NCBI RefSeq assembly: GCF_900218015.1
Contig: NZ_UFQQ01000002.1
Coordinates: forward strand, 203,688-267,687
DNA length: 64,000 nucleotides
From: Rhodopseudomonas pentothenatexigens
Lineage (GTDB): Bacteria > Pseudomonadota > Alphaproteobacteria > Rhizobiales > Xanthobacteraceae
Reading direction: 5' to 3'
Notes under the pieces: generated by a model
The model's database searches: none
What the model saw: only the letters and a program-made list of their open reading frames with translations
Told to the model about the DNA's origin: nothing
Shown here: positions 24,612 to 31,236 of the stretch, one piece after another
How the letters are laid out: every line of letters starts with the position of its first letter
Position numbering within the stretch: position 1 is the stretch's first letter
Program-made: the position numbers and the translations under genes

Positions 24612-24870
24612 AGCATTTCATGTTTTGATTGAAGCGTATCCTGCGTTGACGAAGTAGTTGGTGCATTCGTCTGGAAGGATAGTTCCGACGAGGTGGCCAA
24701 TGTGATTGCAGACGGCGTCGATCGTGCACTTCTGGGATATGCGCATCCAGTGCTTGATCTTGGCGAAGACCTGCTCGATCGGGTTGAGGTCGGGCGAGTA
24801 TGGCGGCAGATACCATAGCCTGGCGCCAGCTGCTTTGATCATCTGGCGTACGGCCGGCTCGTCACGCCAA
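24609..24870 (-). mobile_element. IS630-family remnant, left edge of island
   Basis: Only the 3' part of an IS630 element remains. Its terminus (TAGAGCATTTCATGTTTTGA at 24609) begins at the TAG stop of the GNAT gene, consistent with IS630 insertion at TA, and the transposase piece breaks off near 24854 where the kinase gene's end begins. No right end is present. Confidence 0.75.
24618..24854 (-). pseudogene. IS630-family transposase, C-terminal fragment
   Basis: About 79 residues of the DDE domain end remain, from AVRQMIKAAGARLWYLPPYS through PDLNPIEQVFAKIKHWMR (the conserved motif with the final acidic residue) to a normal C-terminus. The N-terminal helix-turn-helix and first catalytic aspartates are missing, so it is inactive. 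The sequence upstream of AVRQ no longer matches a transposase. Confidence 0.82.
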
Positions 24871-24874
24871 CTCA

Positions 24875-27800
24875 TTACTGACCATTTTTGCGCGGACATC
24901 TATAGTATATTGCCCTACCCTTCCTGTCACTCACCCACGAGAGCGTCGACCCGCTGAGAGAAAGGCGCACTTCCGAATCCCACTTATCTCCGTTTGCATT
25001 GCATTCTGCACCGACTCTCCAAGCACGAAACCCACTCCCCTCCAGCGCTCGAAATACACAGCTTCCCGCTGCGGTGCTTGCCTTGTCCGTGTTGATGCTG
25101 GCAATTTCATCAGTTCCGTTTGTCGCGCAGGCAGAAGGGTTCGCGGCCCAGGTACCGATGAAAGTGTCATCCCCATGGACTCGCGGCGGCCGCTTCAGTG
25201 CATCTTCAACACGACCATCATATCCATCAGTCTGACCAAGACCATTGAAAACTTTGTAGTCCCTTAGCGCGCTCCTCGATCTCAAGCCCCACACTCCGTC
25301 TACACTGCCAACTAGATACCCAGATGAGCGGAGCCTTTCCTGTATCCACCTAGCGTCCCCCTCATTCAGAGGACTAAGATATGCGCCCTGCACACCCGGA
25401 AAGCTGAACTCCTCAAACGGACTCTCCGGTTCTTCCGAAATGCGGCTCCCAGACCGTGCGCTCGTAGCGAACAGGGACGCTTGCGTTTCAAGATCCCATT
25501 GATCATCCTGCCCTAACCCGGCACCAATTCGGAATTCACGCAAAGCTCGCCTTGAGCGAGGCCCCCACAAGCCGTCAGGAATTCCTAAAAAATACCCCAA
25601 TACCCGCAACCTCTCCTGAACCCGGCGAGCCGCATCGGAATCCACTAAATCAACCAGAACCGCCTCTTCGTTGGGACGCCAAGCAGTAGACGGCACCAAC
25701 ACGGCCGGTGTGGCAATCAAGGGGCCAGGGAAAACGCATGATGCCAGAAACTCGCCTATTGCCTTCGATGGCCGTGGTACACGCAACACTTGCCGAGTAT
25801 TTGATTCTACGATCTCGACTTCGATTACAGCAAACTCACTTCGCGACAATGCAAGCCGCAACGAACTGACAAGATTCCGAACAACACTTTCGTCCTGCCT
25901 CGATTCGCGAAAGGAAAACGTCGCCGCCCCTCCGGATCTTAGTGTCACGCGCAAGGTGGTCGTTTCCGATCGCTGGTTAACACCAACAGGATCCACCCCC
26001 AAAGATTGGCTGCACCTAATCGTGAGCCCCCGCAATCGTTCCTGTGGGAATGGACCCGCGGCAAGGCCAATCACACCATCCGCAATCTTGTCTTCAAACC
26101 ACAATGCGTCTTCAAGACTCGGCCTATTTTCATCGGCCTTGCCGTCCACTTTGCCGCGATTTGGGGGGGCTGCAACTCCGCCAGAGGGGGCTGTCGCGGG
26201 AACGGAGCCGGGCTCACGGTTTGTCCCGTTGACACCATCTTCTTTTGACCTATCTCCGTTATCACTCAGGTTGAACAGAACGAGCGCACCGAGCAATCCG
26301 CCAATCAAAAGTACCGTCACCAAGCTTAAAAGATGCCTGAGCGCCCGCGGAGCACTCCATGCAGGCGGCATCGGCTTAACGGGCCCCTTAATCACAGGCG
26401 GTGCCACAGCTTGAGTGCCACCGAACGACGGAGCACTCGGCGCCGCCGCCTTTGCATCTACTCCTTGACTTCTTAAACCACTCAAAACTGCTCGATTGGA
26501 CTTTGACACTGCGGCCGCCGCACGGCGACCGCCGGCGGTTGCCCCCGCCAAGTTTCGAACTGAACGCAGAATGCCGAAATTTGTCGATCGCTCTCGAACA
26601 CCTAGCCTGAAAAGGGCTTCTTGCTCCTCTATTCGTTCAATTTGGCCATTCTCGGAAATGGTGATACCGACAACTAAACGTGTGTTATCAAGGTAACTGA
26701 TCAATCCCGATACGCTGACCCACGTCGACTCCCACGTCTCGTCCGGCTCTGGATTCAGCTTTGCCAACCCATCCGCCCCAATCTCTGCCCGAACGTGCCT
26801 CTGTTGCGAATTGCCGAAGCAAATAAATTTATACCGTCGACCGACAAATCTCCCTTTTCGATTCTGCCGCTTTGTGAAACCACCCTTCACACTGACAATC
26901 TTGCCAACCAACTCGACAGTGTCACCAACGCACCGAACCACCTCTTCAACATCGGACGCGTTGAGGACTGGATAGACACCGAGGTAATCCCGGCATTGCG
27001 AAAGCACGCTGCCGTTGCTCCCTCCCCCGCTAGCATTCCAACTACCGCTCCGGAACTGCTCAAGGTTAGGCAGATCGCGAACCGGCAACCCACATATGCC
27101 CCTCAGACGCGCCGTCGTCTCGGACAGAGTTGGTACGCCTTCAAGATATTGAAAAACATCGGAGCCTGCAGGGTCCCGAAAGTCCTTGGCTTGGAATATA
27201 ATGGCCTGCCCGCCGGCATTGAACCGCTTGTGTAGACTCCCGTCAAATGAGAGAGCTTGGAGGCTAGCGTCTACCACTGCGAATGAAAATCTATCAATGG
27301 AAGGACCGAAATCAGTAGTCTTGCGGAGCGGATGCTGAAAATGTGGCTGGCCAATTTCCGTACCGTCTCCCAACGTCATGCCAGGCACGAACATCCCATC
27401 GTAATCGATCAAACGCAGTGACCCATCCGGCGCAACAATTACATTCTCGTTTTGGATGTCTCCATGCGCCACACCAACGGATCGAAGGAATCTCTCTAGC
27501 TTCGCAAACTCCTCTCTAAGCGCCTCTATTTTCTTTCTGTCTGCCGCATTTCGCTCTAAGTAGACAAACAGGGTATCACCCTTTGCCCAATCCATCTTTA
27601 AGATCGGAAAGCGCTTACCTTTCACCAGAATTCCAGACGGCTGAAAATCGAACCTAACGAAATAATCGGACGACAGGGATTTCAGGGCATTGGAAATACG
27701 ATCGTATCGCTGCTCGATCTGCGGAATTTCGCGATGAAAGCAACGCACCGCGTACTCTTTTGCCCCGACATTCAGTCGATACGTGATCGCGAAACCGCCC

Positions 27801-27925
27801 GACAGTGCCAATGGCAGACCAAGGGGTGTTGTCCGCAACTTTCCCCTTGCAAGCTCCCTATCAGCTAGCGCATGAGCCACATCCTGAATGGCTTCGCTAT
27901 AGTCCGTGTTATCCGGGTAGGACAT
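24875..27925 (-). CDS. Membrane-spanning protein kinase-like protein with peptidoglycan-binding repeats (TerY-P triad kinase)
   Basis: A 1016-residue protein. Residues about 35-290 are a protein-kinase fold: a glycine loop SGGFAITY (42-49), an AVR strand at 59-61 where most kinases have the AxK lysine, a catalytic loop HGDIQNEN (154-161) and DYDG (174-177) in place of DFG. Residues about 330-430 are beta-rich and OB-like. A single membrane segment spans 529-552. The presumed periplasmic part holds two peptidoglycan-binding-type repeats (about 763-815 and 855-908, each with IQERLR-like and DG-x-WG-x-RSR motifs) and a final domain starting FIGTWAANPSAC. The gene overlaps the PP2C gene by 17 bases. 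It is the kinase member of a VWA-PP2C-kinase triad. The base composition is AT-rich compared with the chromosome. Kinase activity is probable, not certain. Confidence 0.8.
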   Translation of the reverse strand: MSYPDNTDYSEAIQDVAHALADRELARGKLRTTPLGLPLALSGGFAITYRLNVGAKEYAVRCFHREIPQIEQRYDRISNALKSLSSDYFVRFDFQPSGILVKGKRFPILKMDWAKGDTLFVYLERNAADRKKIEALREEFAKLERFLRSVGVAHGDIQNENVIVAPDGSLRLIDYDGMFVPGMTLGDGTEIGQPHFQHPLRKTTDFGPSIDRFSFAVVDASLQALSFDGSLHKRFNAGGQAIIFQAKDFRDPAGSDVFQYLEGVPTLSETTARLRGICGLPVRDLPNLEQFRSGSWNASGGGSNGSVLSQCRDYLGVYPVLNASDVEEVVRCVGDTVELVGKIVSVKGGFTKRQNRKGRFVGRRYKFICFGNSQQRHVRAEIGADGLAKLNPEPDETWESTWVSVSGLISYLDNTRLVVGITISENGQIERIEEQEALFRLGVRERSTNFGILRSVRNLAGATAGGRRAAAAVSKSNRAVLSGLRSQGVDAKAAAPSAPSFGGTQAVAPPVIKGPVKPMPPAWSAPRALRHLLSLVTVLLIGGLLGALVLFNLSDNGDRSKEDGVNGTNREPGSVPATAPSGGVAAPPNRGKVDGKADENRPSLEDALWFEDKIADGVIGLAAGPFPQERLRGLTIRCSQSLGVDPVGVNQRSETTTLRVTLRSGGAATFSFRESRQDESVVRNLVSSLRLALSRSEFAVIEVEIVESNTRQVLRVPRPSKAIGEFLASCVFPGPLIATPAVLVPSTAWRPNEEAVLVDLVDSDAARRVQERLRVLGYFLGIPDGLWGPRSRRALREFRIGAGLGQDDQWDLETQASLFATSARSGSRISEEPESPFEEFSFPGVQGAYLSPLNEGDARWIQERLRSSGYLVGSVDGVWGLRSRSALRDYKVFNGLGQTDGYDGRVEDALKRPPRVHGDDTFIGTWAANPSACATNGTDEIASINTDKASTAAGSCVFRALEGSGFRAWRVGAECNANGDKWDSEVRLSLSGSTLSWVSDRKGRAIYYRCPRKNGQ

Positions 27926-28667
27926 CGGTGGCGATCACAAGCAGTGTGGTGTCATCACGTCTAAGCCGCCCTATGGCGCGTTCCGCTTCGACGAATTCCT
28001 CAAAATCAGCCTCCGAATAGTTCATAACGCGATCGGCGAAGCAGTCCCGATTGTCCGACGACAGGAGCCACTCACCTAGCGCGTCACTCATTAATAGCAG
28101 CACAGGATCTTTGAGCTGCCACAATTGAATTGACTCTCTAAACGACGATCTGGCCGAAAGATAGAAATCGTTATCAACTAAGTTGGTCGATAATAGTTTC
28201 GGACGCTGCTTAAATTGCTCTTCGCTTTGATATGGAAAAGAGCTAACAAATCGACTTCCATCATAACAGACACCTAGGCTATCGCCAATTGCCAGCAGCA
28301 TAACCGTTGCGCCAGGTTCATAAACGACAACACCAAGAAGCGATGCAAACGTTCCTACGTCGTAAGCAGCCTGGAGATTCCAAGGCATCGCTTCACGATC
28401 GAAGTACTCGCTAAACTCGAGCTGCGCCTCCTTCAGCCAACTGTGCGTTACGAACGGATCTGCAACAAATTTTCTTGCGAGAATATCAGACCACCGCGCT
28501 GGATCAAATGAGACAGACGCCCCATCACTGATGGCATGGAGGGAGCCAAATGGAAACTCCCTGCTGCACCAACTGTCCTCGTTTGGATCGCGTACAGACT
28601 TTGGTACACTGAACGCCTTCCTAAGAATCAGTTTAGTCGCCTGCTCGGCTGTCTCGTTAGACGACAA
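27909..28667 (-). CDS. PP2C-like protein phosphatase (TerY-P triad)
   Basis: A 252-residue PPM/PP2C-type serine/threonine phosphatase. Metal-binding acidic motifs appear near the N-terminus (DPNEDSWC and HAISDGAS), in LLLMSDALGEWLL and at the end (RRDDTTLLVIAT). It starts at a TTG immediately after the VWA gene's stop and overlaps the kinase gene by 17 bases, so all three are one tightly coupled operon. In TerY-P triads the phosphatase is expected to reverse kinase phosphorylation of the VWA partner; that is family knowledge, not shown here. Confidence 0.85.
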   Translation of the reverse strand: MSSNETAEQATKLILRKAFSVPKSVRDPNEDSWCSREFPFGSLHAISDGASVSFDPARWSDILARKFVADPFVTHSWLKEAQLEFSEYFDREAMPWNLQAAYDVGTFASLLGVVVYEPGATVMLLAIGDSLGVCYDGSRFVSSFPYQSEEQFKQRPKLLSTNLVDNDFYLSARSSFRESIQLWQLKDPVLLLMSDALGEWLLSSDNRDCFADRVMNYSEADFEEFVEAERAIGRLRRDDTTLLVIATDVLPG

Positions 28668-29507
28668 TTACCTATCCATTGTAAGTCTTGGACGAGTCCC
28701 AATCTCGAAGAAATTCACGATATCCCGGGGATCTGCATTAAATATGTACCCTCGCGCTCCTTCAGGCACATTGTACCCACGATCGACCGCCATATGAGCA
28801 ATATGGGACGGGAGCACGCTTGACATATTGAATAGCGTGCTTGCGAATTTATCTTGAACGGCGGGAAGCACCGACGGAAACTGTACTGCCCGCCCCGCAT
28901 CACTTGAAACATGGGCATTGAACAACAAGCACGGACCATCGTTGGTCGAAATCTGCCTTAGAGCGGCAGCAACATCCGATGGATCGCCATCCCCGGACTC
29001 CCCGTCAGTAACGTGCAGGACGGTCGGTGGATAGCAGGTGGGGTATGTTTCGCACCACTCCGCAAGCACTTCAGTTGCCATCAGCAGAGCTGCGTTCATA
29101 GGCGTTCCGTTGTTTCCCTTGGCTTCAAACCAAACGGGAAATTTTACTTTGCGCTCAATTATTCCACCCGCACCATCATCTTCCGATCGAAGGCGATCTT
29201 CAACTCGTAGCGGTGCAGCGGCTACAGCCGAAATTGGGTGGAAGACGGCCCCCGCTAGGACGCCGCCTAGGCCGGGTGACGCACCACCTTCTCCATAACC
29301 TATCACGCCGAGGTGAAAATAGTCGCGAATCCCTTCCGATCGACTGCAGTTAGTCACAAGCGTGTAGATCGTTCGGTTTAGAACGTCAGCTACGAAAGAG
29401 GCTTTAGAATTTTGAGTACTCATTTTGTCATTCATTGAATGCGACTGGTCAATGACAAAAAGAATCGCTGTAGGATTGTCGCGGCTAATCTCGGATGAGT
29501 AGGTCAT
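28668..29507 (-). CDS. TerY-like VWA-domain protein (TerY-P triad)
   Basis: A 279-residue cytoplasmic VWA domain. The MIDAS metal site is intact: DQSHSM near residue 20 gives DxSxS, a threonine-bearing loop follows around GTPMNAALLM, and the aspartate is in VLHVTDGESGDGDPSD. This is the arrangement of TerY-type VWA proteins. It is the first gene of a three-gene operon with PP2C and kinase. TerY-P triads have been linked to phage defence and stress responses. Low GC and flanking mobile elements indicate horizontal transfer. Confidence 0.85.
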   Translation of the reverse strand: MTYSSEISRDNPTAILFVIDQSHSMNDKMSTQNSKASFVADVLNRTIYTLVTNCSRSEGIRDYFHLGVIGYGEGGASPGLGGVLAGAVFHPISAVAAAPLRVEDRLRSEDDGAGGIIERKVKFPVWFEAKGNNGTPMNAALLMATEVLAEWCETYPTCYPPTVLHVTDGESGDGDPSDVAAALRQISTNDGPCLLFNAHVSSDAGRAVQFPSVLPAVQDKFASTLFNMSSVLPSHIAHMAVDRGYNVPEGARGYIFNADPRDIVNFFEIGTRPRLTMDR

Positions 29508-29773
29508 TCAATGGAGCCCCTTTTTCGGAGTAAATCTGCCGTTTGACGAAGCGCGAGTAAACATCCAAATTGCTCCCATTCGACAAATTGACAATTGAAA
29601 GGCACGTCTAGCGGGAACAGTGGGAAGCCTGCGGTAATATTCTAAGCAACGATGTATTCGGCGAATGTTTCGGTGGTCGATATTTGGCCACCGCGCGACA
29701 AGAGCGGAAGCCTATCCAACAGAAGGACAAACGATAATACCATTGACGTATATGGTAGCTCTTCTCGCAATAT

Positions 29774-29802
29774 TGGTGGGGCGCACTAGGGCTCGAACCT
29801 GG
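29774..29802 (-). other. tRNA 3'-end fragment (Lys-like)
   Basis: On the minus strand these bases read as a T-arm with GGTTCGAGCC followed by a TGCGCCC-like acceptor strand and CCACCA. This resembles the 3' end of an alphaproteobacterial tRNA-Lys with one T-stem mismatch and one extra C. There is no 5' half on either side of the adjoining IS481 element. Such 3' ends are typical attachment-site relics. Confidence 0.5.
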
Positions 29803-31083
29803 TGTACAGAGGAGGGTAATCGGCTGACAGTGCCGTGGTGAGCGGGCAGCGTCAGGCACTACTTTGGCGACTTGTTTTTCGGCTTTCTTTCCCTCCTTCC
29901 TTTGCTGTGACGCGGGCAGGCCTTCGACGAAGGCGGTGTCGGGCGTGCGGCCGTTCATGCCGCGGCCCTGGTGCGGCCTCCGCTGATTGTAACCGACCAG
30001 GTAGTCGTCGAGAACGGTCTGCATCTCGTCCACGGTCTCGAACCAAGTGCGGCGGTCCTCGGCCCGGAAGTGCTCGTCGAGCAGCGTGCGATGCAGCCGC
30101 TCGACGATGCCGTTGGACTGCGGCCGCTTCACCCGTGTGGCGCGATGGTCGATGTCCTCGAGCTGCAGGAACAGCTCATAGGGATCCTGGTCGGGGCGAC
30201 CGCAGAACTCCCGGCCGTTGTCGGACAGCACGGTCTCGATTCTGGCGTCGTGCGCCTCGAAGGTCGGTAGCGCGTCGTGGTTCATCAGATGCACCGCGGT
30301 GACCGGCAGCTTGCTGGTGTAGAGCCTGGCCCATGCGTAGCGACTGTGACAGTCGATCGCTGTCTGCAGATAGACCTTGCCGACGCCCTTCAGCGAGCCG
30401 ACGAAGGAGGTGTCGATGGCGACCAAACTGCCGGTGTGCGGGGCCTCGATGTGACGCTCCCGGAACTCCGGCGAGAACCGTTCGAGCAGCCTCGTCTGTT
30501 CTTCGGACAGCTCGATGGTGCGTTCGGCGGCGGTCTTCTCCAGCCGCAGCAGGCGCTCGTGCTTGGTCAGCAGGCCATGGCGCTGCCACACTCCGCGGAC
30601 CGCCGCCGGCGGAGACCTGCAGGCCCTTCAGGCGCAGCTCCTGCTCGACCCGCAAAGCGCCGTGGCAGGGATGGACCAGCGCGTGGTCGAGCACGGCGGC
30701 CTCGATCTCGGCCGAGACCCGGTTGGGGTGCGGGCCAGCTGGCGCCGGGCAGCCGGTCGATCAGCCCTTCGGCGCCAAAGGTCTGGAAGTTGCGGCGGAT
30801 CTCGTAGAACTGCTACGGGAATAGCCCATCAGCTTGCAGTCGCGGCTGACTTTCTGAAGATCGGTCGCCAGTTCCAGCAGCGAGAGCTTGCGCCGTGCTA
30901 TCTTGTCCTTGGAGGTCATGATCGTTTGTCCTTTGGGTTCGATTGGTCGTTTGGCGACGCCATCAAACCCGCTCGGACGCGGCGCGACCACCGGAACCGG
31001 ACTCTCGGACTCTCGGACTCATGCGGTCCGCCCCCGGTTCTTTCGGGGCCGAACTGTCAGGTGATTACGATCTCAGGACGTTC
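29803..31083 (-). mobile_element. IS481-family insertion sequence, decayed
   Basis: The ends carry imperfect inverted repeats sharing GTAATC-nn-CTGACAGT (inner part at 29816-29831 and, inverted, at 31053-31068). The left end starts TGTACAGAGG. The body encodes a frameshifted DDE transposase. The element abuts the tRNA-Lys-like fragment and closes the TerY-P island on the right. The outer bases of the right end are diverged, so its exact edge is uncertain. Confidence 0.72.
29830..30919 (-). pseudogene. IS481-family transposase, frameshifted
   Basis: The natural start at ATG 30919 begins MTSKDKIARRKLSLLELA and continues through a helix-turn-helix, but the frame breaks near 30815 (CGTAGCAGTTCTACGAG, apparently one T lost), again near 30735 and near 30605. 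The catalytic core is readable from 30591: LVAIDTSFVGSL (first Asp), TVLSDNGREFCG (second Asp) and SNGIVERLHRTLLDE (Glu), ending near RRPHQGRGMNGRTPD. The open frame running on to 29608 is read-through beyond the element. At least two frameshifts inactivate it. Confidence 0.8.
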
Positions 31084-31150: not shown

Positions 31151-31236
31151 TGGTGGCCGCTGTGGGACTCGAACCCACACGGGCATTGCCCGAGGCATTT
31201 TAAGTGCCTTCCGTCTACCAGTTTCGGCAAGCGGCC
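31151..31236 (-). tRNA. tRNA-Leu (anticodon UAA)
   Basis: A complete class II tRNA of 86 bases with encoded CCA. The acceptor stem is GGCCGCT paired with AGCGGCC, the anticodon arm is AGGCA-CTTAAAA-TGCCT giving UAA, a long variable arm (CGGGCAATGCCCG) follows, and the T-arm is GTGGG-TTCGAGT-CCCAC. All stems pair. Its acceptor sequence differs from the broken tRNA-Leu(UAA) at 31360-31411. Confidence 0.95.

Follow-up and report, generated by a model that had tools for sequence, protein, structure and literature searches.

The window (the whole stretch of 64,000 nucleotides that was analysed) carries three adjacent genes which sequence comparison identifies as a TerY-P triad of the STK-OB subtype, with phage protection as the predicted function, and whose kinase continues for 465 residues beyond its membrane helix. 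This arm is what is new here; membrane attachment itself is normal for STK-OB kinases.

The TerY-P triad and the kinase-OB half

All three genes lie on the minus strand. The first (28668..29507) encodes a TerY-like VWA protein of 279 aa (PADLOC TerY, E=8.7e-121), whose translation contains the MIDAS-type motif DQSHS and, further downstream, GTP and TDG. The second (27909..28667) encodes a PP2C-type phosphatase of 252 aa (PADLOC PP2C, E=2.4e-58) in which the motifs NEDS, SDGAS, GDS and DD are all present. The third (24875..27925) is a single ORF of 1016 codons with an ATG start that overlaps the phosphatase stop by 17 bases, and it encodes the membrane-spanning STK-OB kinase with the predicted wall-binding arm. 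Residues 1-492 of the kinase matched PADLOC STK_OB with E=7.1e-138, covering model positions 1-506 of 562. The genes are intact, adjacent and co-directed, and form one operon. When public genomes were searched with the kinase half, both a VWA and a PP2C partner were found nearby in 77 of the best 80 of 368 candidate loci, and it is on this result and the three PADLOC matches that the subtype assignment is based. The three genes and their order are the same as in the described STK-OB subtype (Gao et al. 2020; PADLOC TerY/PP2C/STK_OB).

The kinase domain (residues 1-295; 27041..27925, minus strand) is supported by the PADLOC match, by its motifs, by an AlphaFold model and by Foldseek, which matched the model to protein kinases with E about 2.5e-9. 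Over residues 1-440 of this model, which was built from a 65-sequence alignment, the block-mean pLDDT was mostly about 84-98 (about 90-98 over most blocks of the kinase domain) and fell to 61 at residues 301-310. The OB-fold domain (residues 318-435; 26621..26974, minus strand) shows an OB-like strand order at residues 336-423 with high confidence, and PF01336 was matched in five homologues. A linker joins this fold to the membrane helix.

The initial annotation had regarded the atypical AVR and DYDG motifs as a reason to doubt kinase activity. In STK-OB kinases arginine replaces the usual lysine (AVR, here residues 59-61) and DYDG (174-177) replaces DFG, while the HGD..N motif occupies residues 154-161. 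However, A59, R61, H154-G155-D156, N161 and D174-Y175-D176-G177 were invariant in 65/65 STK-OB kinases, including that of the window (best 80 of 368 loci). The two motifs are therefore ancestral and give no sign of lost activity, which rules out decay of the kinase on these grounds. The kinase-OB half and its family-wide AVR, HGD and DYDG motifs are thus features that the window kinase has in common with its subtype. Among viruses, a single contig was found to code for a protein related to the kinase half, whereas the tail had no viral relatives.

Membrane helix and predicted extracytoplasmic arm

The claim that the kinase spans the membrane was confirmed by one strongly predicted helix at residues 529-551 (26273..26341, minus strand), with its core at 532-550. 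The core has a KD hydropathy of 2.65 and a Hessa-type sum of -2.79, and it is the only favourable segment in the kinase; among 2000 shuffles, nine reached its hydropathy and one its insertion score. The flanks contain four K/R and no D/E before the helix and three K/R against five D/E after it, which fits the predicted N-in/C-out orientation. A second crossing at residues 726-744, which would place the repeats inside, was ruled out, as this second-best segment is proline-rich and unfavourable (+5.17).

The helix aligns with the C-terminal anchors of homologues; the anchor common in the STK-OB subtype thus sits at the position of the window helix. Among the homologues from the best 80 of 368 loci, the tail contains a membrane-type helix in 41 of 64, as opposed to 2.8% of shuffled tails. 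In 36 of these 41 the helix lies within 25 residues of the end, two further homologues fell just below the threshold, and most of the remaining ones terminate in a short amphipathic helix, e.g. GLFGRLIDWLFK. Judged from these sequences, membrane attachment is the rule among STK-OB kinases, and the surprise expressed earlier at a membrane crossing in TerY-P was therefore not warranted.

Several homologues deviate in other respects. Some STK-OB kinases are closed by a CFI-box-CTERM domain rather than by a membrane helix (L054, L111, L012 (P0006)). One STK-OB-type kinase (L088:4030-6513) has a helix and a 286-aa outside tail and no recognisable VWA or PP2C neighbour, and in a triad on an Acaryochloris plasmid (L013:4821-7220) the kinase is followed by a membrane helix and a long repeat-like tail, with no clear OB fold. 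Two alphaproteobacterial STK-OB loci (L037 and L039) each contain two tandem TerY-like VWA genes.

What separates the window kinase from its subtype is the 465 residues past the helix, with two peptidoglycan-binding repeats and a four-cysteine domain (all on the minus strand). Between the helix and repeat 1 lies an uncharacterised region of about 130 aa (residues 600-745; 25691..26128), which is predicted to be outside, produced no Pfam match and was modelled by AlphaFold with low confidence as beta-beta-alpha-beta-beta. Repeat 1 comprises residues 757-812 (25490..25657; PF01471/PF08823) and repeat 2 residues 851-911 (25193..25375; PF01471 at 856-901). PF01471 (PG_binding_1) matched these two stretches with E=2.6e-13 and 50.4 bits against a cutoff of 23. 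Among solved structures, a profile of six tails matched the peptidoglycan-binding domain of SleB (6tci) with E=6e-6, and repeat 2 aligns with this domain. The C-terminal domain (residues 918-1016; 24878..25174), delimited by alignment, is common to exported-type proteins and other TerY-P kinases, and its cysteines 933, 956, 975 and 1010 are invariant in six relatives. Since the C-terminal tail folded alone gave a pLDDT of only 33, its fold rests on sequence profiles.

With regard to the overall architecture, the initial annotation had listed a kinase, an OB-like region, a membrane segment, two peptidoglycan-binding-type repeats and a C-terminal domain. PADLOC, AlphaFold, helix prediction, PF01471 and alignment together support every one of these elements, to which the region at residues 600-745, absent from that list, must be added. 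The description of the C-terminal domain as secreted-type also held, as stand-alone relatives bear signal-peptide-like starts. We infer that the arm would lie in the periplasm and grip peptidoglycan.

Distribution of the arm and genomic setting

Among 65 STK-OB kinases from the best 80 of 368 loci, the window protein alone has the arm, i.e. PG_binding_1 after the helix. As judged by sequence searches, the arm is thus exceptional within the subtype. A whole-protein search nevertheless revealed arm homologues in relatives without STK-OB kinases. Four TerY-P kinases of the zinc-ribbon/HHH type from the same order carry the arm (G443, G1042, G967 and G526), and all four adjoin VWA and PP2C genes; Pfam matches confirmed both partners of G443 and of G526, and PF01471 was matched in G967 as well as in G526. 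In the family sample, three of the five complete zinc-ribbon/HHH kinases have the arm and two lack it. The zinc-ribbon/HHH triads (Anantharaman et al. 2012; found near CoCoNuTs) have the same layout as the window triad, whereas their kinases have a zinc-ribbon/HHH region where the window kinase has its OB domain. The earlier view that this architecture is unfamiliar for TerY-P consequently stands for the STK-OB subtype, with one instance in 65, but not for TerY-P as a whole.

The arms of G526 and the window kinase are colinear over 254 aa with 41% identity (E 7e-48), whereas the kinase halves of the window and the zinc-ribbon/HHH type match weakly (E about 9e-5 to 1e-3). As the arms align well and the kinase halves barely, the arm is carried by two TerY-P kinases that are only distantly related to each other. 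The tree of the arm had no support; the arm may have a single origin across TerY-P kinases, and it may have come to the two subtypes via transfer or repeated fusion.

Further carriers are proteins that consist of a helix and the arm alone, a DUF4236 protein, and a Microvirga protein in which a signal-peptide-like start accompanies a relative of the arm. The exported-type, stand-alone relatives support an outside location of the arm. The DUF4236 protein (G777, L132:4213-6114) combines membrane helices with the same wall-binding-type/four-cysteine tail. Small four-cysteine-domain proteins with signal-peptide-like starts, weakly similar to DUF3617, were also seen (L159 and L160).

The triad occupies a stretch of 47-57% GC within sequence of 65-70% GC. 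It is flanked on one side by an IS630-like transposase remnant (window 24620-24816), which was identified by eye and gave no Pfam match, and on the other by an rve-type transposase (window 29608-30933) with the inverted ends AAGGACAAACGAT/ATCGTTTGTCCTT. A tRNA-Leu(TAA) gene (window 31151-31236) lies beside the low-GC island, where no repeat indicating an attachment-site duplication was found. No STK-OB kinase was detected in 15 genomes of the same genus or in the 397 other genomes of a 398-genome sample of the order, which is consistent with horizontal acquisition of the triad.

Possible role of the arm and comparison with known systems

The literature searched yielded no account of the trigger of TerY-P. 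We give about even chances to a TerY-P variant with a wall-tethered kinase that phage entry switches by perturbing the envelope. The kinase and OB domains would be inside, and the arm in the periplasm would hold on to peptidoglycan. At rest, PP2C would keep the phosphorylation signal of the kinase low. Phage entry, or another disturbance of wall or membrane, would alter the load on the arm or its clustering and thereby the kinase, which would then phosphorylate targets and so stop phage growth, with the VWA protein as a putative scaffold for kinase, phosphatase or target. An ordinary family member might play the same role from its short C-terminal membrane anchor, which in the window kinase and its four zinc-ribbon-type relatives would have been lengthened into the wall.

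Envelope sensing is in our judgement the most plausible use of the arm, and its presence on unrelated TerY-P kinases suggests that such systems may monitor the envelope for arriving phage. Cells with TerY-P mostly survive infection at both low and high MOI (PMC10889362), which suits early detection. A precedent for a wall-binding part in defence is ZorB, whose peptidoglycan-binding domain is required for Zorya defence and has been proposed as a wall-damage sensor (PMC11890865). For defence by a kinase and a phosphatase the precedent is KKP, whose toxic kinases are restrained by a phosphatase (PMC11341870). Against wall sensing, the fusion of an STK-OB kinase to the arm occurs in only one genome of the 398-genome order sample, and the presence of an OB domain suggests that nucleic acids may be sensed in the cytoplasm. 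By analogy, KKP also speaks for an inside trigger, since within the cell a phage protein sets it off by binding its phosphatase (PMC11341870). Moreover, as most STK-OB members are without the arm, wall contact is not needed for TerY-P function in general.

The main rival to sensing is that the arm merely anchors the kinase at the wall or another cell site, while the trigger remains inside, where the OB domain, the VWA protein or the phosphatase would sense it. The retained OB domain, the KKP trigger and the family-wide attachment by a membrane or amphipathic helix all agree with such an anchor. Nevertheless, although a short anchor suffices for localisation, the kinase acquired 465 aa that comprise two wall-type repeats, the additional region and the four-cysteine domain, and another TerY-P subtype has a similar arm; we regard a pure anchor as unlikely. 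Less probable still is that the module is a general sensor of envelope or metal stress and not chiefly a phage defence. The arm domains do occur on non-defence proteins, and PMC11090510 cites Anantharaman 2012 for a link of TerY-P triads to tellurite resistance and for the hypothesis that they form a phosphorylation switch which senses metals. However, the same paper cites Gao 2020 for STK-OB triads that reportedly act against phage as stand-alone systems. The window triad lies between mobile-element remnants within an island of low GC, and its occurrence across relatives is patchy. These remnants on both sides, together with the single STK-OB instance among the best 80 of 368 loci, could also point to a chance fusion by mobile elements, with a neutral arm or a decaying system. 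This is very improbable, considering that the three ORFs are intact with catalytic motifs retained, that the arm stops where its family naturally ends and that a colinear arm is present on another TerY-P kinase.

The general membrane tethering of STK-OB kinases and the same arm on two TerY-P subtypes point to the envelope as a place of detection. A wider claim, which we put forward tentatively and consider somewhat less probable than the wall-tethered switch itself, is that TerY-P kinases act in the membrane as receptors of envelope damage, with the wall-binding arms of two subtypes directly reading phage penetration into a kinase/phosphatase switch; they would then be a bacterial counterpart of receptor-kinase immunity.

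Among known systems, Zorya (ZorAB) resembles the predicted architecture in that a defence protein crossing the inner membrane has a wall-binding domain needed for defence. The domain of ZorAB, however, is of the OmpA/Pal type and belongs to a MotAB-like motor that has no kinase; ZorAB is not homologous to the window kinase, and no ZorA or ZorB model was among the PADLOC matches of the triad. The PASTA kinases (PknB, StkP and PrkC) are one-pass Ser/Thr kinases with wall-binding repeats outside and are often paired with a PP2C phosphatase; they have typical kinase motifs, act as core growth regulators and have no VWA partner. Where these kinases have PASTA repeats, the window kinase has PF01471, and Pfam detected no PASTA repeats in it. 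In KKP a phosphatase keeps the kinase toxicity in check until infection releases it, as we propose for the window triad; KKP differs in having two kinases, no VWA protein and a cytoplasmic phage protein as trigger. If TerY-P does detect phage at the envelope, a class of kinases would join the small set of defence systems for which surveillance of the wall has been proposed.
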